Shown here one piece after another: positions 5,190-41,360 of a stretch of DNA of 49,186 bases. The first letter of the stretch is position 1, and the number at the start of each line of letters is the position of its first letter. A program made the position numbers and the translations under genes. The notes beneath the pieces were generated by a model. The model was not told where the DNA came from, made no database searches, and saw only the letters and a list, made by a program, of their open reading frames with translations. The stretch lies in contig MWEH01000107.1 of NCBI GenBank assembly GCA_002070965.1, forward strand, positions 1 through 49,186. Direction: 5' to 3'. The DNA comes from Firmicutes bacterium ADurb.Bin080 (GTDB lineage Bacteria > Bacillota > Clostridia > Christensenellales > DTU072).

Positions 5190-6635
5190 GTGTACAAACC
5201 TGAAACAAAGTCGACAACCAAAAAAGATCTTTTCTTAAAGATTTCCAAAGTTGTTACCAAGATATTTTATACTGAAATTCCTATGGCAATTCTCTCTTTC
5301 TTTATCTTTTTTTCTTGGTTTTTCGAATTAGAAATTGTCGCTTTTTCCCTAGTTATTATTTATGCTTCTATTTCCCTTATATTTGTTGATGATACTATCC
5401 CCTTAATGCCGGCGATTATTCTTACCACTTTTGCGGTTGCAGATGGAGTTAATATTGTAAAGTATATTAATTTTGCATATGCAGCAATTATTATCGTAGC
5501 GGCTCTTTTGTTCCATATGGTGTATTATCGAAAAAAAATTCGCTTTGGAAAGATGTTCCTCCCGCAAGCACTTGTTGCCCTGGCTCTTATTCTTGGTGGT
5601 TTGGGAAATATCTCTAAAGAATATTATTTAGGAACACTTGCATTGAATCTTCTCCTTGGGATAGGTATTTTATTAATGTATTTTCTTTTTTACCTATATA
5701 GAGGCAAAAATGAAGAACAAGATACTTCTAGATATTTTTCAAAAATGCTTTCTTGGGGGGGAATTATCGTTGCTTTTCAAGTCATAACCTATATTCTTCG
5801 TTCAGGTCAAAGTATTACTTCGCTATCAACAGAATTTATGGATTTAGGATGGGGTATAGACAATAATGCAGCTACCCTACTTTTATTAACGGCTCCTTTA
5901 ACTCTCTTCCTCGCAACAAGAAAAGATACCTTAAGGCCCTCACTTTATGTGTTATCCGCCTCAGTTCAGTACCTCGCAATAGTCTTTACTTTTAGCCGGG
6001 GGGGAATCTTTTTTGGTTTTATTTCTTTTGTCGTTGCTTCTGTTTTTTTATTAAAAAAGTCCGAACGAAAAAAAGAAGTTTTGGTTACTGGAAGCATCCT
6101 TTTGCTAATTGGATCTCTGATACTCATTTTTAAGTCTTCCAGTATTGCCGACCTGATTAGAAGCTTTTCTTTTCAAGGATCTGGGGACAACGGTCGCCTA
6201 GCCCTTTACAAGGAGGCCTGGCAATCATTTCTTTCCCATCCACTTTTTGGCGTAGGATTAGGTTATCAGGGCCCAAATTATGAAATAAGATCTATTTCCT
6301 TCTATTTCTTCCATTCAACGTTTTTCCAAATAATTGCATGCACAGGGCTATTTGGATTTATTGCTTATTCGTATCTATATTTCCGAAGATATCAAATTGT
6401 ATTTAAAAACATATCTAAAACTGTTTTTGCGATTTTCGCTTTAATCGGTATGTTTGGATTCGAAGCATATTCTATGATTGACACCGGGACCTTTGTCCCA
6501 TTCCCTTCAATGATGTTGATTATGTTTCTTACTATGATATTGGAAGAAAGTATACCCTCTTCAACCCCATTAAATGATTTGATTGTCGATTATATTATTT
6601 CTAAGAATAAAAGAGAACCTGTAGATAGCTTATAA
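5190..6635 (+). CDS. Wzy/O-antigen ligase-like polysaccharide polymerase
   Basis: This 481-residue integral membrane protein has about 11-12 hydrophobic segments. It would join polysaccharide repeat units or transfer the finished polymer to an acceptor on the outer face of the membrane. The family signature lies near residues 340-395: a periplasmic stretch GNGRLALYKEAWQSFLSHPLFGVGLG ending at a histidine in FFHSTFFQ, as in the Wzy_C domain. The start is GTG with a strong AGGGG site nine bases upstream; no ATG is available nearby. It is the first gene of a two-gene operon with the GH27 protein. An ABC exporter and a Wzy-like protein usually belong to different export routes, so ligation is possible. 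(The quoted stretch differs slightly at its first residue, which reads SGDNGR.). Confidence 0.8.
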   Translation: MYKPETKSTTKKDLFLKISKVVTKIFYTEIPMAILSFFIFFSWFFELEIVAFSLVIIYASISLIFVDDTIPLMPAIILTTFAVADGVNIVKYINFAYAAIIIVAALLFHMVYYRKKIRFGKMFLPQALVALALILGGLGNISKEYYLGTLALNLLLGIGILLMYFLFYLYRGKNEEQDTSRYFSKMLSWGGIIVAFQVITYILRSGQSITSLSTEFMDLGWGIDNNAATLLLLTAPLTLFLATRKDTLRPSLYVLSASVQYLAIVFTFSRGGIFFGFISFVVASVFLLKKSERKKEVLVTGSILLLIGSLILIFKSSSIADLIRSFSFQGSGDNGRLALYKEAWQSFLSHPLFGVGLGYQGPNYEIRSISFYFFHSTFFQIIACTGLFGFIAYSYLYFRRYQIVFKNISKTVFAIFALIGMFGFEAYSMIDTGTFVPFPSMMLIMFLTMILEESIPSSTPLNDLIVDYIISKNKREPVDSL

Positions 6636-32818: not shown

Positions 32819-33046
32819 TTACTTATTTTTTTTCTCTATGAATGCAACTATGTCTCCGACTGTTTTCAAGGAAGCAATCTCATCATCCGAAAATTCGACA
32901 TTAAATTCATCTTCAATCACTATAAGCATCTGTACGATGTCAAGGCTATCAGCTTTCAAGTCTTCTACAAGCTTTGAATCGGGGGTAATGATTCCCTCTT
33001 TTATTCCAAGTAATTCTGCTATATGTTTTCTGACTTTTTCTAACAT
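32819..33046 (-). CDS. acpP: Acyl carrier protein
   Basis: ACP carries growing acyl chains on a phosphopantetheine arm in fatty acid and phospholipid synthesis. The 75-residue acidic protein has the attachment motif DSLD at its centre (KADSLDIVQMLIVIED). It stands alone, not in a fab cluster, between the ribosomal genes and the unknown membrane-protein operons. A GGAG-type site precedes the ATG. Confidence 0.95.
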   Translation of the reverse strand: MLEKVRKHIAELLGIKEGIITPDSKLVEDLKADSLDIVQMLIVIEDEFNVEFSDDEIASLKTVGDIVAFIEKKNK

Positions 33047-33250: not shown

Positions 33251-33280
33251 ATAAAAAAAGAGAGGCCTTCGCCCCTCTTA
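33251..33280 (-). terminator. Terminator of the second motif-protein operon
   Basis: On the minus strand AAGAGGGGC and GCCTCTCTT pair (one A-C mismatch) around GAAG and are followed by TTTTTTTAT. It lies about 25-50 bases after the last gene of the operon. Confidence 0.85.
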
Positions 33281-33303: not shown

Positions 33304-34293
33304 CTAGTCTTCTATTATATAAGTTTTTTTGGATGGATCATCTCTTTCCACAATATAAGCATTTTTCTTTGCAAACAGTGGTAGGAACAATAGAAGGATT
33401 GAACCAACAAGTGCAGCAAGCAAGCCCCATCCCCATCCTATCGTTGCCTCTGCCCCTCCTGGCATAAAGAAGTCGGAAATGTTCTGGGATCTCAATGCAG
33501 GCTCAACTTCTGAGTTAGACATTGCCATCAGCCCTACAAAAGCTAGTACACAAAAAACAATGTTTATTAAAGCAACAATACTGAAAGATCTTGGGCTACG
33601 CTTCTTCAAATATCTAGCTAAATACTTAATAACTAAACAAAGCAATAGAAAAGCAATAAGTGTGACCAATATCGGGAAGGCATAAACTACAATTTTGCTT
33701 AAAGTATCCATAGTAGCTTTGTTTGCAACAATATTATCGCTGTACTCCGATCCTGAATCAAGCCCAAAAATGTCTCCAATTGCCATAATCGTTTCAACTC
33801 CGTTCATATCAAAGGCTTGTCTGGAGTCATCTGCCTGAAACACCGCGACTGATAAGATTAACAAAAGAACTAATGCTATCACGGAAACCAAAAGTGCAAC
33901 TATACTAACTCCTCTAAACGCCTTCTTTACGTATACAGGTGCTTTAGGAGAAGTTTTAGGCTCAACTGGTCTTGAATACGGATCATATTGAAGCATTGGT
34001 TGATTTTGAGAAGTGTACGGAACTAGTGCTATAGGCTGAACAATGGCGGGCATTTGTATAATTGATGAAGGAACGGGAACCGCATTATTAGTGTTAGTAC
34101 TAACTCTAGAAAGTTCGGGTTTCGATTCCCCAACACAGTAGATAGCTCCATCAGGGCCGGCAACCGGTTTTTGAGAGGGTAACGGGGGTAACGAAAAACC
34201 TAAAGTACTTTCATCAACGGGAACCCATCTCCCTCGGTCAACAACGTGACTATCTTGCATCGGATTAACTTTTGAACTATTATTCTTTTCCAT
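33304..34293 (-). CDS. Four-helix membrane protein with the QLTPIVQPI-type motif (unknown family, member H)
   Basis: I do not recognise a named family. The 329-residue product has a proline-rich cytoplasmic N-terminus. The motif, here QMPAIVQPIALVPYTSQNQP, is at residues 80-99. Then come a basic stretch, helix 1 (about 127-150), an external loop of about 50 residues, helix 2, a basic loop YLARYLKKRSPR, helix 3, a short loop and helix 4 with a charged tail. Both ends should face the cytoplasm. I start at the ATG at 34293, seven bases after GAGAGG; an earlier ATG overlaps the previous stop and lacks a good site. It is the last gene of operon II and ends before a terminator. Motif and membrane module are fused here. 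Confidence 0.75.
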   Translation of the reverse strand: MEKNNSSKVNPMQDSHVVDRGRWVPVDESTLGFSLPPLPSQKPVAGPDGAIYCVGESKPELSRVSTNTNNAVPVPSSIIQMPAIVQPIALVPYTSQNQPMLQYDPYSRPVEPKTSPKAPVYVKKAFRGVSIVALLVSVIALVLLLILSVAVFQADDSRQAFDMNGVETIMAIGDIFGLDSGSEYSDNIVANKATMDTLSKIVVYAFPILVTLIAFLLLCLVIKYLARYLKKRSPRSFSIVALINIVFCVLAFVGLMAMSNSEVEPALRSQNISDFFMPGGAEATIGWGWGLLAALVGSILLLFLPLFAKKNAYIVERDDPSKKTYIIED

Positions 34294-34304
34294 ATTCAAA
34301 CCTC

Positions 34305-34661
34305 TCATTCATCCTGTTGTCCGCCACCGTAGTTAGGCAAAAAGTTCACGGGGGCTACAATCGGGGTAAGCTGTACTATTGTTGCTGGTTTCGGAATGGG
34401 AACAGGAGCACTATTTGGCTGAGGGCCATAATGCATTGCTGGAGTAAAGGCTCTTCCATATTCATCAATTGATGTATATGTTGGCAAACCTAAAGGCATA
34501 CCGTTTGATGAAACCTCAAATGATCCTGTATTAGGCATCACTATTGCCTGAGCAGGAGTCTGCATCAAAGGGAACGGCCCACTTTGTGGCTGTCTGGTCG
34601 GAACGCTTGTTCTGGCTACTCCGTCACTTACAGTCTCCGTTTGTCTATTTCTTCTTTTCAT
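34305..34661 (-). CDS. Short soluble proline-rich protein with a truncated motif (unknown, member G)
   Basis: This 118-residue product has no membrane segment. It is rich in P, Q and T, with a basic start and the motif at the very end: PVPIPKPATIVQLTPIVAPV, after which VPYSTQ is replaced by a short glycine-rich, acidic tail. I choose the ATG at 34661 behind AGGAG; a TTG just upstream overlaps that site. It lies 62 bases after member F and 11 bases before member H. It may supply the motif in trans, but lacks half of it. No function can be assigned. Confidence 0.65.
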   Translation of the reverse strand: MKRRNRQTETVSDGVARTSVPTRQPQSGPFPLMQTPAQAIVMPNTGSFEVSSNGMPLGLPTYTSIDEYGRAFTPAMHYGPQPNSAPVPIPKPATIVQLTPIVAPVNFLPNYGGGQQDE

Positions 34662-34723
34662 TCTATCTCTCCTCAACTATAGTATTTACGCTATCACATA
34701 TCCCATACCTAGCGCAACAAACT

Positions 34724-35452
34724 TTATTTTTCATTCTTTGAGAGAAATGCTATCATTACAAGCAATAATCCTATTGCAGCTACAATATACATTCCATAAT
34801 TTACTGTTATTTCGTCCTTTTGAACTAGGGAAATCATAACTGCTACCAAGGCAGTAACGAGTCCAAGAAAACTGAATATCTTTGCGAATACACATGCACC
34901 TTGTTTCTTTATTCTTATAATACTAGATAATAATACAAGTAATGCGCATACAACGGATGCTGAAATCCCCAAAGCGACAACTGTGACAGTATCAAGCACT
35001 ATTGCCCCTGCTGAAAACACGTTAAGCAACATGTCTAATCCGCTGGTCTCATTTGCAATCTGAACATATGTGAAAGCCAAAAACTTACCTACAACATATA
35101 CAGCTATCATAATCAAAGACAAAATAATCAACGCAATAGCAGCCCCACTAACCTTTTTAGATTTTTTAGCCGAGGTTGTCACTACTGCTTCTTCAGCATA
35201 ATTGTCTTCGCTATATGAATAGTCGTCTTCATACTCAGCAGCCTGTGTCGATGCATCATCATACATATACAAGGGTTGTTCTTGAGTTGAATAAGGAACA
35301 AAAGCTATAGGTTGAATGATAGGCGTAAGTTGCATTGGCCCAGAGGGAGAGTGCACAGGAACCTGGTTCCCAGGTTTTTTTGCTGGCTGTGGTCTCTGCA
35401 TTGTGGGCGGAGCTGGTTTTTGAGCAATTGATTGTTCATCTTTTTTTCGCAT
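34724..35452 (-). CDS. Four-helix membrane protein with the QLTPIVQPI-type motif (unknown, member F)
   Basis: The 242-residue product starts with a proline-rich segment, then the motif at residues 40-60 (MQLTPIIQPI and FVPYSTQEQP). A strongly acidic, tyrosine-rich stretch (about 65-90) and a basic KKSKK lead into four hydrophobic helices (about 101-125, 148-175, 187-210, 220-238). It is the smallest membrane member, with a short first external loop. I use the ATG at 35452, behind GGAGG; the TTG 15 bases upstream is the ribosome site itself. Topology and motif link it to members A and H. Function unknown. Confidence 0.75.
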   Translation of the reverse strand: MRKKDEQSIAQKPAPPTMQRPQPAKKPGNQVPVHSPSGPMQLTPIIQPIAFVPYSTQEQPLYMYDDASTQAAEYEDDYSYSEDNYAEEAVVTTSAKKSKKVSGAAIALIILSLIMIAVYVVGKFLAFTYVQIANETSGLDMLLNVFSAGAIVLDTVTVVALGISASVVCALLVLLSSIIRIKKQGACVFAKIFSFLGLVTALVAVMISLVQKDEITVNYGMYIVAAIGLLLVMIAFLSKNEK

Positions 35453-35509
35453 ATTTATTTCCTCCAAAAATATTTCAAGACATATACTGTCTTACTTCCC
35501 AAAATATAA

Positions 35510-35743
35510 TTATCCCTCGTATTCGCCACCCTCATCATCAAACTCTGCCATAGGTTGTTCTTGAGTAGAGTAAGGAATAAGGGAAATCGGTTGGACCACT
35601 GGTGTCAACTGTATAAAGTCGGCAGGCTTAGCAACTGGAACAACTCCACAATTATTCATGACCTTAAAAGTCACCCTTGGTCTAAATGAAATGGGCTGTG
35701 CAGGTCTACCAATATTATCTTCTTTTTTTACTTTTTTCGACAT
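35510..35743 (-). CDS. Short motif-only protein (unknown, member E)
   Basis: This 77-residue soluble protein consists of a basic start (MSKKVKKED), a proline-containing spacer, the full motif at residues 32-64 (GVVPVAKPADFIQLTPVVQP, then LIPYSTQEQP) and an acidic tail (EFDDEGGEYEG). It is closely similar to member C in layout and motif, although the two lie in different operons. It starts 22 bases after member D, a motif-less membrane protein, behind an AGGA-type site. I infer that D and E together equal one fused protein such as F. A cytoplasmic location is likely. Confidence 0.7.
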   Translation of the reverse strand: MSKKVKKEDNIGRPAQPISFRPRVTFKVMNNCGVVPVAKPADFIQLTPVVQPISLIPYSTQEQPMAEFDDEGGEYEG

Positions 35744-35765
35744 ATTCTTTTCCTCCGCTTAATCT

Positions 35766-36833
35766 TTATTTATCAAAAATACTATATGGAACCTTTCTTC
35801 TTGCAAACAAGGCTAAAAGCATTATGACTATTGGCGCTACGAGTACTGCAAGCGTCCCGTATCCTGACACTAAGGGAATCGGCGCCACATCAATTTCTGG
35901 ATCAATGGCAGTAGCTGGTGGTGCGGTAAAAGCACCCGTTAAAAAATCAAGAGCCTTGGTGAAATCAATAACGCTAACCAAAGTAACGCCATCATCCAAA
36001 TACTTGGGCGCTCCGCTGAAAACACCAGATGCAACGAATCCTCCGATAAAAGTCATTACTCCAGCAAGAACCATAATCAAAGCGAAAATGAAAAAGCCTT
36101 TAAATATTCTTCTTCCAAACATCGAAAACAAGCTCAAAATAAATATTAGTACTGCACCCAGAGCAGAAACAACTAAAGCAACCGGGAAGTATGGGAAAGC
36201 AATTTTCGCAACCATCATCATAGGATCTTGTTCCCTTGCTTGTGCAAGAAGCTCTTCTTCAGTAAGTTCGGGGGCCTCTTCAGGTTCTTCATCAGCAGCT
36301 TCAGCCTCAACTTCTTCCTCGGGAGCTCCCATTATTTTCTCGTACATTTCATCATAAAACGGGGAGAGAGAAACACCATTTGCATCTACCATAGGCTGCT
36401 TAAGAATTGCAGAAATTCCTCCGTAGATAGGATCCATCATGGATATATATTTGCTTTGATCGACGTAGGGTAACATTATCGCGTTGCCATCGTCATCTAA
36501 CTCACCAGTATCAGTTTCCAATCTTTCATCAAGTGGAGTAAGATCCTTTTCAACTAGAAAAGAAGTGTAGTTAGGGAGAATATTTAAATAATTCAAAAGA
36601 ATAATAGCAATCCAAATCAAGGAAAAAACCATCATAAGAAAACAAACGCCTCTTCTCATAATGAAGAAGTATTCTCTTTCTTTCCTTCTCTTCCTTTTTA
36701 CTGGAATTGCTTTTTGCTGCGGACGGGCATTTGGATTTTGTTGAATTGGTCTAGGCCTATTGGGTGGCCCATAAGATGGGCGAACTGAGACACTGACATT
36801 TCGTGGATTTCCCGGTGCTGTCTGATATGCCAT
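35766..36833 (-). CDS. Four-helix membrane protein without the motif (unknown, member D)
   Basis: The 355-residue product has a basic, proline-rich N-terminus ending in KRKRRKERE. Helix 1 (about 59-80) is followed by an external loop of about 120 residues that is very acidic towards its end (EEVEAEAADEEPEEAPELTEEE in part). Helix 2 (about 204-228), a short basic loop and helix 3 follow, then a second external loop of about 45 residues and helix 4 with a basic tail. It lacks the QLTPIVQPI motif, but the next gene (E) consists of little else. It is the first gene of operon II; a GGGAGGGG site precedes the ATG. Confidence 0.72.
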   Translation of the reverse strand: MAYQTAPGNPRNVSVSVRPSYGPPNRPRPIQQNPNARPQQKAIPVKRKRRKEREYFFIMRRGVCFLMMVFSLIWIAIILLNYLNILPNYTSFLVEKDLTPLDERLETDTGELDDDGNAIMLPYVDQSKYISMMDPIYGGISAILKQPMVDANGVSLSPFYDEMYEKIMGAPEEEVEAEAADEEPEEAPELTEEELLAQAREQDPMMMVAKIAFPYFPVALVVSALGAVLIFILSLFSMFGRRIFKGFFIFALIMVLAGVMTFIGGFVASGVFSGAPKYLDDGVTLVSVIDFTKALDFLTGAFTAPPATAIDPEIDVAPIPLVSGYGTLAVLVAPIVIMLLALFARRKVPYSIFDK

Positions 36834-36843
36834 ATCCCCTCCC

Positions 36844-36861
36844 TTAGAGTTTAGTTTTCAT
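36844..36861 (-). CDS. Possible leader peptide MKTKL before member D
   Basis: Five codons plus TAA, with AGAGGA nine bases before the ATG. The stop lies about ten bases before the ATG of member D, so ribosomes ending here could restart on the main gene. Such a short frame can arise by chance; the ribosome site is the main support. Confidence 0.3.
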   Translation of the reverse strand: MKTKL

Positions 36862-36888
36862 TAGTGTTTGTCCTCTTGATAAAAGACC

Positions 36889-36909
36889 GGATAATTTTTT
36901 TGCTTATCC
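36889..36909 (-). other. Leader hairpin of operon II
   Basis: GGATAA and TTATCC pair around an A-rich loop on the minus strand. A second mini-frame, MNLKG (36904-36921), ends inside the first arm of this hairpin. No U run follows directly. A regulatory role is possible but unproven. Confidence 0.35.
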
Positions 36910-36969
36910 TTTCAAATTCATGGAAAAATATACTAAAAGAGTATTCCCCCACTTTTTGATATTATTATT

Positions 36970-36998
36970 AGTTTATCACAAGAGCATATAGAATTCAA
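36970..36998 (-). promoter_or_regulatory. Probable promoter of motif-protein operon II
   Basis: On the minus strand: TTGAAT, 17 bases, TAAACT, with TG one base before the -10. The leader to member D would be about 130 bases. An alternating purine-pyrimidine tract (37015-37035) lies 16 bases upstream of the -35. The rest of the gap, 37036-37131, holds nothing I can name. Confidence 0.55.
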
Positions 36999-37131
36999 CA
37001 ATAATTTATATAAAATGTGCGTGCGCGTATATATAGCAAAAGTGTGAAATTTTACGTAGGATTTGTATCTTGATTAACGCCCTAATTCTAGCAGGTAAAA
37101 CCGGATTTATGTTAAATAATCTCTTTTTGTA

Positions 37132-37159
37132 CAAAAAAAAGCGGAGCTTTAACTCCGCT
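37132..37159 (-). terminator. Terminator of motif-protein operon I
   Basis: On the minus strand AGCGGAG and CTCCGCT pair around six bases and are followed by eight T's. It stands 20 bases after the stop of member C. Confidence 0.92.
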
Positions 37160-37178
37160 AATTATTAAAATAATTTAA

Positions 37179-37439
37179 TTAATAAATATCATCGTATTGA
37201 TCGTCATCTTCAAATGTTGCGAGTGGCTGCAATTGAGTAGAATATGGAACCAATGGAATCGGCTGAACAATAGGAGTCAGTTGTATAAAATCGGAGGGAG
37301 GAGCAATTGGTACTGGGCCCCTATTATTAAGTTTTCTCCAACTTGCAGTGGGTTGTTTAGGTCTCCTTAGAGCCTCTTGCCTTCTTGCAGCTTCTTCCCT
37401 AGCTCTCTGCTCTTCCATCATTCTTTTCTTTTTGCTCAT
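37179..37439 (-). CDS. Short motif-only protein (unknown, member C)
   Basis: This 86-residue soluble protein begins with a charged helix rich in K, R and E (residues 1-27) that could be a short coiled coil. Then come a spacer, the full motif (GPVPIAPPSDFIQLTPIVQP, then LVPYSTQLQP, residues 41-72) and an acidic tail ending DDDQYDDIY. It is the last gene of operon I and follows member B, a motif-less four-helix protein, by 18 bases behind a GGAGGAT-type site. The B-C pair mirrors the D-E pair of operon II. No known domain is seen. Confidence 0.7.
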   Translation of the reverse strand: MSKKKRMMEEQRAREEAARRQEALRRPKQPTASWRKLNNRGPVPIAPPSDFIQLTPIVQPIPLVPYSTQLQPLATFEDDDQYDDIY

Positions 37440-37457
37440 AATACTATCCTCCTACTA

Positions 37458-38309
37458 TTACTGAACTTTCTTTTTGCTACGAAACGCAAAGAAGCTAAAT
37501 ACAAACACAAGCAAGGATATTCCCAGCATTATGATGCCACCATAGGCAAGCATCATTGGTAGGGGTACTGTAGCAACAAAAGGTATGAAGTTCATTATTT
37601 CAGCAAAGTTCATCCCCGCCGCCCAAATAAATCCTCCAAACACTACCAGAAGATTCATAACAAACATTAAAATGCCGCTAAGTACAAAAAGCTTTCTTCT
37701 CTTAGGAGTAAATGCTGCGACAAGTAATCTTATCAGGAAAATTACTGCTATTATGAGTCCCAATGCAAATGCAATCGGAAGGGCATAATATGCTATCATT
37801 TCTACTGTACCTACATTGGCAATATTAACCATACATTCATCATAAAAATAGGATGTTTCTGCGAGATCGGGCATGAAGGACTTAACAAAACCCATGACCA
37901 CATCTCTGTCTGAAACGGCAATTCTTGGATCCCCCTCGTTAACAGGTGCTTTGGAAAATAACGAAGTATACTCCGGTAAAACAGCAAAGAATGATAAAGC
38001 GGCAACTGCTACATAAGCAAGAACTAAAACGAGTAAAAGTATTACAAAAAACCCTCTCTTTGATTTCATTGGCAAAGTACGAGTTTTTGCTCCACCAGCG
38101 CCCATTCCTGATTCTAAATCATCATAATTTTCTGCTCTTCTATAAGAATTTCTACTAATTTGAGCCTTGGCTTCCATTCTTTGGGTTTTTGCTGCGACAT
38201 AGTTAGCTACATAAGGGGAAGACATGTCTCTGTTACTTAACAGATAGCTATTTGCATATCTATTTGAATCCGGATTTGCTCTTTGTTGCGAATTAGCATC
38301 GTATCCCAT
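37458..38309 (-). CDS. Four-helix membrane protein without the motif (unknown, member B)
   Basis: The 283-residue product has an N-terminal tail of about 85 residues, polar and rich in N, S, Y and R, ending in basic residues. Helix 1 (about 86-110), an external loop of about 60 residues, helix 2 (about 170-195), a basic loop TPKRRK, helix 3, a short loop and helix 4 follow, ending RSKKKVQ. I use the ATG at 38309 behind GGAGGT; the ATG 12 bases upstream overlaps that site. It lies 40 bases after member A. It has no QLTPIVQPI motif, but member C downstream does. Confidence 0.72.
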   Translation of the reverse strand: MGYDANSQQRANPDSNRYANSYLLSNRDMSSPYVANYVAAKTQRMEAKAQISRNSYRRAENYDDLESGMGAGGAKTRTLPMKSKRGFFVILLLVLVLAYVAVAALSFFAVLPEYTSLFSKAPVNEGDPRIAVSDRDVVMGFVKSFMPDLAETSYFYDECMVNIANVGTVEMIAYYALPIAFALGLIIAVIFLIRLLVAAFTPKRRKLFVLSGILMFVMNLLVVFGGFIWAAGMNFAEIMNFIPFVATVPLPMMLAYGGIIMLGISLLVFVFSFFAFRSKKKVQ

Positions 38310-38349
38310 AATTACCTCCATACCATTATTGCGAACAAAATTTCGCCTG

Positions 38350-39582
38350 TTAATCTAAGTCTTTTTTGTTTCTTTTTTTAACTAAATTTGCCGGAGAGAA
38401 AAAACTAATCAAGAAAGCAAGTAGAGAAATACCTCCAATAATATACATTCCCAAGGCGACATCATCCAAAAAGGTGTTTAATCCCTCAGAAGTGAAGCCT
38501 GCATATTTATTAATTATTCCCACAACCCCGGTTAAGAAAAACAACAAAACAAACAATGGTAACAAAAACCCTTTTCTTTTAGCCGATCCTTTAAGTAATC
38601 TAGCGAAACTTCTGATCACCAGAACTACGGCAAGTATAATAAATATAGTGAAAGCAACAGGTGAAATAAAATCTGTCCATCCTTCATATGTATATCCTAT
38701 CGAATCCCAAAGATGAATTGAAAAAGCACCTTCAACACACTCTCCTATTCCTGTAACAAAAAACAGGATTGGCTTCTGAACAAACCCATTAACGAAGACC
38801 TCATAAATATTGACTACATATGCGAGTATAACCATCGCAAGAGATAGAATCATAAGCAGAAGTCCTACTACTCTAACTGGCTTTGTTTTTTGTCGAAGAA
38901 TAATATCATCCTCTGATTTTTCAATATTTTCTACTCCATAATTTGAAGTCAAATTATGTGCTTCATTAATAGCCTTTTCTTGATTAATCCTCTCCATTTC
39001 TCTTGAATCAATTTCTTCTTGAGAATAAGGTTGAAATCTAAAAACTTGATTGGGCTTGTATTGCCAAATTTCTTGATTGGGATTTACAAAAGGGACGACA
39101 ATAAATGGTTGCACAACAGGATTCGCTTGTCCCCCACCCATAGCTGTTAGCCCTTCTGTTTGAACTATCGGTTGCTGAAGTTGCTTGGGCTGTTGTATTG
39201 CTTCCTCTTCAGGTGGAGTTTTTTCGTTGGTTTGGGTTATATCCTCTTGGACAGGTTGCTGCTCAGGAGTTGCTTCTTCGGAGTATTCATATCCCTGTTT
39301 AACTTTTTTAAGAGCACTTACAAATTCACTTCTTGGTCTTGGCTTTCCACACTTTGAACATCTGTCTTGGTCTATGCTATTTACAGTTCCACAAACAGAA
39401 CACACAAAGGTAATTCTGGATCTATCAATAGTCGCAAGAGCATCTTTTTCAAAGCTTTTCTGCGCTTTCTCCAGAGCTTCCTTCATCGCATTAGAACTTG
39501 AATCACTGAGTGGCTTCCCGCAAGAAACACAAAAACGACTGCTGTCTAAGTTAATCTCCCCACAAGATTTGCATTTAATCAT
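38350..39582 (-). CDS. Double zinc-ribbon four-helix membrane protein with a divergent motif (unknown, member A)
   Basis: This 410-residue protein is the first gene of operon I. Residues 4-21 and 61-78 are two CxxC-x10-CxxC zinc ribbons, with the cysteines at 4, 7, 18, 21 and at 61, 64, 75, 78. A helix and a Q-, E- and P-rich linker follow. The divergent motif NPVVQPFIVVPFVNPNQE is at residues 154-171. After about 60 charged residues come four helices with the shared topology (first loop about 45 residues, basic loop FARLLKGSAKRK). Such ribbons usually mediate protein contacts. An AAGGA site precedes the ATG and a good promoter lies upstream. Function unknown. Confidence 0.78.
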   Translation of the reverse strand: MIKCKSCGEINLDSSRFCVSCGKPLSDSSSNAMKEALEKAQKSFEKDALATIDRSRITFVCSVCGTVNSIDQDRCSKCGKPRPRSEFVSALKKVKQGYEYSEEATPEQQPVQEDITQTNEKTPPEEEAIQQPKQLQQPIVQTEGLTAMGGGQANPVVQPFIVVPFVNPNQEIWQYKPNQVFRFQPYSQEEIDSREMERINQEKAINEAHNLTSNYGVENIEKSEDDIILRQKTKPVRVVGLLLMILSLAMVILAYVVNIYEVFVNGFVQKPILFFVTGIGECVEGAFSIHLWDSIGYTYEGWTDFISPVAFTIFIILAVVLVIRSFARLLKGSAKRKGFLLPLFVLLFFLTGVVGIINKYAGFTSEGLNTFLDDVALGMYIIGGISLLAFLISFFSPANLVKKRNKKDLD

Positions 39583-39722: not shown

Positions 39723-41360
39723 TTATTTCTTGTTAAACTTATCTCTTAACTCTACAATGCGGTAAAATCTAAGTTTGCCAGAAAAATATCCAGCCTTCTT
39801 GAAATATGCATTTCTCATGAACTGATAGGGAGTTCCATCCGAAGACTCTAAGACAAATGGCTCAACTACTGCTCCGTCAATTGTTATCAAAGAATGCTGA
39901 TTCAATCTAAGCTTAAAGTCGCTAATTCCATCTTCGATATCATTCAACAACTGGTCGTATTTATACAGTTCACAAGGGACTCCGTACTTGCGTGAAACCC
40001 ATTGAATTGTTCCTTGGACCTTCATATTTGCATTTTCTCCACCGCTCTGGCTATCTTCAATGTAGTTACAATGTATAACCGAAGGCATTCCATTTTTGTC
40101 ATATTCTGTGGATACATGTCTAACGATAAATGCAGACTTTAGCCTTACGATTCCACCTGGAACTAGCCTGATGTATTTTGGGGGAGGATTGTCAGAAAAA
40201 TCCGTTTTTTCTATATATATCTCTTTGGTAATAGTTACATTATGGGAACCTATACTAGCGTCATTGGGATTATCAACAGCCGAATATGTTCTTTCTTCTC
40301 CATCATAGAAATTGTCTATAACAACTAATAATGGTTCCTCAACCGCCATTGCTCTGATAGCATTTCTATTGAGGTTTTCTCTCACACAATAGTCTAGCAA
40401 CTGGGAATCTACCTCACTGTTTGCCTTGGCAACTCCTACCCTTGTGCAAAAATCTCTTATAGCTTCTGCGGGATATCCCCTCTCTCTCATACCACTTAGA
40501 GTAGGCATTCTAGGGTCACTCCATCCGGAAACGAAACCAGAATCGACCAAGCTTTTTAAGAACCTTTTTGACATAATCGTGTTCTTAATATTTAATCTTG
40601 CAAATTCAATCTGTCTGGGTTTTGGGTTAAAATCACAATTGTCAACTACCCAATCATATAGAGGTCTATGATCTTCAAATTCTAGGGTACAAATTGAATG
40701 GGTAATCTTTTCAATAGCGTCTTCTATTGGGTGGGCAAAATCATACATCGGATAAATACACCATTTATTAGAAGTTCTATGATGAAAAGCATGAAGAATT
40801 CTGTAAATTACTGGGTCCCTCATATTCATGTTCGGACTGTTCATATCAATTTTTGCACGCAAAACTTTTTCTCCATCAGCATATTTACCATCTCGCATAT
40901 CAGAAAAAAAGGATAAATTCTCCTCTACTGTTCTATTCCTAAATGGACTTTCTTTCCCAGGGGTTTTCAAATCCCCCCTTGAAGCGCTGATCTCATCAGC
41001 GGTAAGATCGCATACGTAAGCCAAACCCTTCTTTATTAGTTGAACAGCGCAAGTATACATCTGCTCAAAATAGTCGGAGGCGTAAAGCTCCTGGTCCCAA
41101 ACATATCCTAACCATTTGATGTCTTCTTTTATACTGTCTACATATTCTATATCTTCTTTTGTGGGGTTAGTATCATCAAACCTAAGATTGCATTTCCCAT
41201 TAAATTTCTCTTTTATCCCAAAATTAATGGATAAACTCTTTGCGTGTCCAATATGAAGATATCCATTGGGTTCAGGAGGAAACCTTGTAAGTATGCTATC
41301 ATGTTTTCCGGACTCCAAGTCGCTGACAATTATTTCTTCTATAAAATTATTCGCTTCCAT
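39723..41360 (-). CDS. glnS: Glutaminyl-tRNA synthetase
   Basis: This class I synthetase charges tRNA-Gln directly. The HIGH motif is in PPEPNGYLHIGHAKS and the KMSKS equivalent is IMSKRFL. RFDDTNP and the C-terminal anticodon-binding beta barrels (SIGSHNVTITKEIYIEKTDF onward) fit GlnRS rather than GluRS. The 545 residues are full length. Many Bacillota lack GlnRS and use the amidotransferase GatCAB instead, so its presence is informative for the lineage. It lies 33 bases after the GNAT gene and has an AAGG site. Confidence 0.95.
   Translation of the reverse strand: MEANNFIEEIIVSDLESGKHDSILTRFPPEPNGYLHIGHAKSLSINFGIKEKFNGKCNLRFDDTNPTKEDIEYVDSIKEDIKWLGYVWDQELYASDYFEQMYTCAVQLIKKGLAYVCDLTADEISASRGDLKTPGKESPFRNRTVEENLSFFSDMRDGKYADGEKVLRAKIDMNSPNMNMRDPVIYRILHAFHHRTSNKWCIYPMYDFAHPIEDAIEKITHSICTLEFEDHRPLYDWVVDNCDFNPKPRQIEFARLNIKNTIMSKRFLKSLVDSGFVSGWSDPRMPTLSGMRERGYPAEAIRDFCTRVGVAKANSEVDSQLLDYCVRENLNRNAIRAMAVEEPLLVVIDNFYDGEERTYSAVDNPNDASIGSHNVTITKEIYIEKTDFSDNPPPKYIRLVPGGIVRLKSAFIVRHVSTEYDKNGMPSVIHCNYIEDSQSGGENANMKVQGTIQWVSRKYGVPCELYKYDQLLNDIEDGISDFKLRLNQHSLITIDGAVVEPFVLESSDGTPYQFMRNAYFKKAGYFSGKLRFYRIVELRDKFNKK

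Follow-up and report, generated by a model that had tools for sequence, protein, structure and literature searches.

The window analyzed here, a 49,186-nucleotide stretch of DNA from Firmicutes bacterium ADurb.Bin080, carries a run of eight open reading frames on the minus strand whose coordinates we confirmed and whose flanking genes, from a reading of their sequences, appear to be acpP (32819-33046) and glnS (39723-41360). Six of the eight products contain a module of about 38 residues, PVPVxxPxxxIQLTPIVQPIxxVPYSTQxQPLxQYDDE, referred to below as the motif. Copies occur in F, D, C, and A, with a truncated copy in B and a divergent one in H, and the motif is absent from E and G. Genes are lettered H to A in transcription order (H, G, F, E, D, C, B, A), and TM denotes a transmembrane helix. 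The features of the cluster are as follows.

38350-39582, minus strand: gene H, two zinc ribbons (four CxxC) followed by a divergent copy of the motif (residues ~151-178) and a four-TM domain
37458-38309, minus strand: gene G, four-TM protein without the motif, with a predicted claudin-like fold
37179-37439, minus strand: gene F, standalone protein of 86 amino acids with the motif (residues 42-78), encoded immediately downstream of G
37140-37159, minus strand: terminator-like stem-loop and T run at the 3' end of the H-G-F unit
35766-36833, minus strand: gene E, four-TM protein without the motif, closest paralogue of G (hhalign, 99.9%)
35510-35743, minus strand: gene D, standalone protein of 77 amino acids with the motif (residues 35-71), encoded immediately downstream of E
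34724-35452, minus strand: gene C, N-terminal tail with the motif (residues 31-66), then a four-TM domain
34305-34661, minus strand: gene B, standalone protein with a truncated motif copy at its C-terminal end
33304-34293, minus strand: gene A, N-terminal tail with the motif (residues 71-106), then a four-TM domain with a predicted claudin-like fold
33258-33279, minus strand: terminator-like stem-loop at the 3' end of the E-D-C-B-A unit

The hairpins after F and after A point to transcription of the cluster as two units, H-G-F and E-D-C-B-A. A 345-bp noncoding gap (36834-37178) lies between the F terminator and E and probably serves the latter unit as leader and promoter; a search of Rfam matched a known tRNA only, with none of its families found in the gap.

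H is the sole window protein to score above any curated cutoff, through its zinc ribbons (Pfam Zn_Ribbon_1 and DZR, 38.1 bits against a cutoff of 25 and 32.1 against 27.3; E value, 1.2e-9). It resembles proteins of those families in the two zinc ribbons at its start and differs from them in carrying the motif and in sitting among paralogous tetraspan genes. Matches of window proteins to DUF4064, SpoIIM, DUF996, DUF2569, and Yip1 fell below the curated cutoffs, and similar matches were scattered among orthologues. A also matched phrog_1039 ("immunity to superinfection") over residues 102-216 (E value, 6.7e-5), a similarity that may reflect common TM composition.

Conservation and distribution of the motif

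The initial annotation, made from the sequence alone, had placed the motif in six of eight consecutive minus-strand genes. A hidden Markov model (HMM) trained on five of the window copies and iterated over related loci, where it found 83 domains, recovered all six with domain E values from 2e-20 to 3e-12 (1.2e-12 for the divergent copy in H), which excludes chance as their source. The divergent copy is retained in H orthologues, and B orthologues from some other genera (L050 and L053) contain a complete copy. F, D, and B had no family match in Pfam, NCBIfam, or PHROGs, neither Pfam nor NCBIfam gave a match to the motif itself in any window protein, and the motif profile matched no chain among PDB sequences.

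Conservation within the motif is position specific: one Q and one P occur in all 164 distinct copies (100%), and another P, another Q, and a V are found in 98%, 96%, and 94% of copies, respectively. Median pN/pS values for orthologue pairs within the motif were 0.13 for A, 0.28 for C, 0.20 for D, and 0.16 for F, compared to 0.56, 0.60, 0.46, and 0.57 outside it, in comparisons in which synonymous change was saturated, while B displayed little contrast (0.35 in the motif versus 0.45 outside). The motif is thus under clear purifying selection in A, C, D, and F, in agreement with the proposal that it defines an undescribed family kept by selection. Identity between motif copies was 0.66 for the same gene across genomes and 0.47 for different genes, whether within a genome or between genomes. 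Motif types are therefore specific to gene position, and the copies are old paralogues that show no sign of gene conversion or homogenization.

The same proposal had treated the sequence around the motif as low in complexity and different from gene to gene, with only the motif conserved. The tail segments flanking the motif are proline rich and variable, but this description is wrong in one part, as homologous four-TM domains are found in A, C, E, G, and H. Nor is the motif the only element kept, since several standalone motif proteins have a conserved SF(R/K)(V/I)MNN block just before it, A orthologues have a second conserved block, and the four-TM domains are also conserved, although they diverge much faster. 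The block in A orthologues, GRWVPVDxxxLGF...GPDG..YCVG, precedes the motif and corresponds to residues 21-53 of window A.

A search with protein F found matches in 38 of the 39 genomes in the window's family, most of which had several; the single genome without one is 68% complete. The motif profile matched 66 of the 396 genomes of the order, all of them in three families (31 in f1, 29 in f3, and 6 in f14), and none of 397 genomes sampled from the phylum outside the order. In the class sample, the sole match outside the order was weak (G897; E value, 7.9e-4), and we took it to be due to chance since it lies antisense to a gene of 299 amino acids. The viral contigs searched held no relatives. 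The order is probably Christensenellales, in which a DTU072 metagenome-assembled genome (MAG) has been placed (PMC11536998), and related contigs include those of "Candidatus Stercoripulliclostridium," Christensenella sp. UBA3944, Clostridiales bacterium DTU072, and many other MAGs. A known domain, or matches scattered among unrelated proteins, had been named in the initial annotation as outcomes that would argue against a distinct family; both were tested for, and neither was seen.

Four-TM domains and their pairing with the motif

Profile-profile comparison indicates that the four-TM domains of A, C, E, G, and H are homologous (91 to 99.9%), with E and G closest to one another, although the weaker links between multi-TM families may be inflated by common hydrophobic composition. 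Exactly four TM helices were scored in 69 motif proteins; in every one of them, the motif is N terminal to TM1, and K and R are more frequent on the N-terminal side of the membrane (0.26 versus 0.04). Given the positive-inside rule and the zinc ribbons of H, we infer that the N-terminal tail and its motif face the cytoplasm.

Predicted structures of A and G have the same arrangement of four helices, with short strands following TM1 and preceding TM4. For A, the AlphaFold model has a pLDDT of 72.5, with block means of 80 to 95 in the TM helices and values of about 40 to 60 in the motif, which has no secondary structure; the mean pLDDT for G is 73, with higher values in the helices. Searches with the two models by Foldseek and VIA returned mostly claudins, TARPs, and their relatives (MP20, GSG1L, and LHFPL5) as the best matches in the PDB, which is rich in TARP entries. 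The best Foldseek E values for these two paralogues were 0.034 and 0.05, individually not significant, and the VIA scores (Z of 10.7 over 149 residues at an rmsd of 3.7 for A and Z of 11.2 over 164 residues at an rmsd of 4.9 for G) lie below the bar suggested for helical bundles. Profiles of the four-TM domains searched against PDB sequences gave insignificant matches only. Like the claudin/PMP22/TARP superfamily, A and G are predicted to have four helices, with strands in the loop that follows TM1 and a single strand ahead of TM4. They differ in being bacterial, in having no Pfam match over the cutoff, in the N-terminal putative docking motif of their family, and in the missing W-(G/N)LW-C-C signature, which, sought as [GN]LWxxCx(7-11)C, was found in none of 86 motif-bearing four-TM proteins. 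From these models, a claudin-like fold of A and G is plausible, and membership in the claudin superfamily is unproven. Our literature search returned no bacterial claudin-type family, an absence that proves little.

The initial annotation had proposed testing whether motif copies adjoin genes for four-helix membrane proteins, and the loci that we read strongly support such a link. Among 200 motif proteins, 89 have a four-TM domain of their own and 109 are encoded immediately beside a same-strand four-TM gene, for a total of 198, compared to 24 of 441 background genes outside the clusters that lie beside such a gene; a simple rule based on hydropathy was used to call four-TM domains, and because the genomes that supplied the loci are related, the counts do not represent independent events. 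Of the remaining two, one is an H gene (L092) with a four-TM gene at a distance of two genes, and the other (L091) has a four-helix ORF, not among the genes called, directly downstream. What had been missed is that the motif is tied to a four-TM domain in its own protein or in the adjoining one. E-type proteins lack the motif, and a standalone motif gene is the next gene downstream in 32 of 32 loci; G-type genes are followed by one in 19 of 24 loci and preceded by one in 4. Likewise, E and G, the two motif-less four-TM paralogues in the window, each precede a standalone motif gene (D and F, respectively), and a standalone motif gene paired with a four-TM gene is also found in isolation outside the main cluster (L088, L089, L090, and L091). 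Since motif and four-TM domain are paired either in cis or next door, the motif behaves as a tetraspan module that can be fused or separate. Altogether, it represents an undescribed, selected, and lineage-restricted family tied to a cluster of tetraspans.

A putative docking module for a membrane assembly

The initial annotation had suggested that the motif is a docking site for a shared cytoplasmic partner or for the proteins of the cluster themselves. This is now the most economical reading, since the motif precedes TM1 on the side rich in K and R, lacks order in the model, and, where it is absent in cis, comes from a neighboring gene. A docking role is well motivated on these grounds, and it carries over the conjectural character of the original suggestion. 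Because the same motif is found on nearly every component, it most likely recognizes a common receptor surface or joins the components mutually. Since the same flexible element is displayed while the four-TM domains diverge, a common docking surface fits best, whether this is a putative shared protein or the motifs themselves.

On balance, we favor a lineage-specific membrane assembly in which the tetraspans and the zinc-ribbon protein H are joined via the common cytoplasmic motif, which is probably a plug that holds the tetraspans together or to one partner. The main building blocks would be four-helix paralogues that have a predicted claudin-like fold and whose N and C termini are both cytoplasmic, and H, which is membrane bound in the window and soluble in a related family, would be the zinc-ribbon member. 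The motif would act as a flexible cytoplasmic docking module at roughly one copy per tetraspan, either within the protein's own N-terminal tail (A, C, and H) or on a small adaptor, with F presumably serving G and D serving E. The SF(R/K)(V/I)MNN block could be the contact of the standalone proteins to their tetraspan. Bringing the tetraspans and H to one receptor surface, or joining them to one another, might then yield a heteromeric membrane patch.

The weakest alternative is that a low-complexity, proline-rich tail is kept for its composition only, without specific binding. The proline-rich and variable segments on either side of the motif have such a character, but the position-specific conservation and strong purifying selection within it, together with the lack of real matches in unrelated proteins beyond the single antisense one, already contradict this explanation, and we give it almost no credence. 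Alternatively, the motif may dock on the cytoplasmic face of the four-TM domain as a regulatory peptide, intramolecularly in A and C and intermolecularly from D to E and from F to G. The cis/trans complementarity of motif and four-TM domain is consistent with this arrangement, as is the conservation among A orthologues of K(S/T)PRxFS in the loop joining TM2 to TM3. Even so, the low pLDDT and missing secondary structure of the motif in the model of A argue against it, as does conservation of the motif within A, C, D, and F that far exceeds that of the rest of each protein, including the four-TM domain; we regard this arrangement as improbable. It is somewhat easier to accept, though still unlikely, that the motif binds other copies of itself through extended or beta-type stacking, such that tetraspans and adaptors polymerize without a separate receptor. 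Homotypic assembly of this kind would account for the display of the same element on nearly all components, including H, and is consistent with the alternation of hydrophobic residues with fixed Q and P positions across the 164 distinct copies and with the lack of any further conserved gene alongside the cluster in the different families, while the fixed prolines would be expected to disfavor regular beta stacking.

The closest precedent that we found for the favored assembly is AuxB of Staphylococcus aureus, a "bacterial tetraspan" of the DUF4064 family with a cytoplasmic tail motif that binds the adaptor GpsB and a proposed role in building extended protein networks at the membrane (PMC12505970). 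Both systems combine a bacterial four-TM protein with a short linear motif in a cytoplasmic tail. The AuxB motif, SRQAKY, is C terminal, whereas the unrelated motif described here is N terminal, and AuxB is a single protein rather than a cluster of paralogues with separate motif proteins. None of nine genomes searched had a DUF4064 (PF13273) match over the curated cutoff, and no listed match fell inside the motif cluster; by hmmscan, 4 of 27 E/G members matched DUF4064 (best E value, 7e-5), which we treat as a lead only. As a candidate for the shared partner, DivIVA/GpsB (PF05103) had no match in two motif-rich genomes (G005 and G011; completeness, 99% and 94%), and we consider it unlikely to fill this role in the window's family. 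Weak matches below the cutoff were found in G000 and G022, and matches over the cutoff were found in G094 (f3) and G052 (f14). Given the results for DUF4064 and the lack of detectable DivIVA/GpsB in G005 and G011, the cluster may work in a manner similar to AuxB with another partner.

Claudins dock to scaffolds via a short cytoplasmic motif. A tentative and more specific version of the assembly, which we consider possible but doubtful, is a bacterial claudin-like scaffold in which claudin-fold tetraspans and a zinc-ribbon protein share a peptide carried in cis or provided by an adaptor, a form of modular tagging undescribed in bacteria. If the claudin-like fold is correct, tetraspans of this type with docking tails would be present in uncultured Clostridia of animal guts, termites, and anaerobic sites, and they would bear on the origin of such membrane patches. 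More generally, the cluster is a clean case, open to testing, in which a whole set of bacterial paralogues has one short putative docking motif in common, and the natural cis and trans versions of this motif point to its function without a known partner.

Variation of the module among families

The order glnS-H-G-F-E-D-C-B-A-acpP is widely kept in f1. A smaller module is found in f3, consisting of glnS, a soluble CxxC/motif protein, and two tetraspans with the motif in one or both; the H orthologues in this family are soluble, with six to eight CxxC and the motif near the C terminus. In one motif-negative f3 genome (G041), the zinc-ribbon protein and the tetraspans are absent after glnS, which is followed instead by ORFs for a 151-amino-acid protein, two multi-TM proteins, and a 252-amino-acid protein that resemble, in size and TM count, those lying beyond the module in L046. 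Absence of the whole module from G041 suggests, from this one comparison, that the module comes and goes as a unit.

In f14, a termite-gut family, the motif was not detectable by our model in the H protein, so H need not dock via the motif everywhere. Some genomes encode an H that is cut short after the motif or has no TM helices (L099:2644 and L092:667), indicating that membrane anchoring of H varies. The standalone motif gene of f14 occurs in near-identical tandem copies (L102:5271-5486 and 5739-5951), and this duplication is also seen in L097, L103, L106, and L108.
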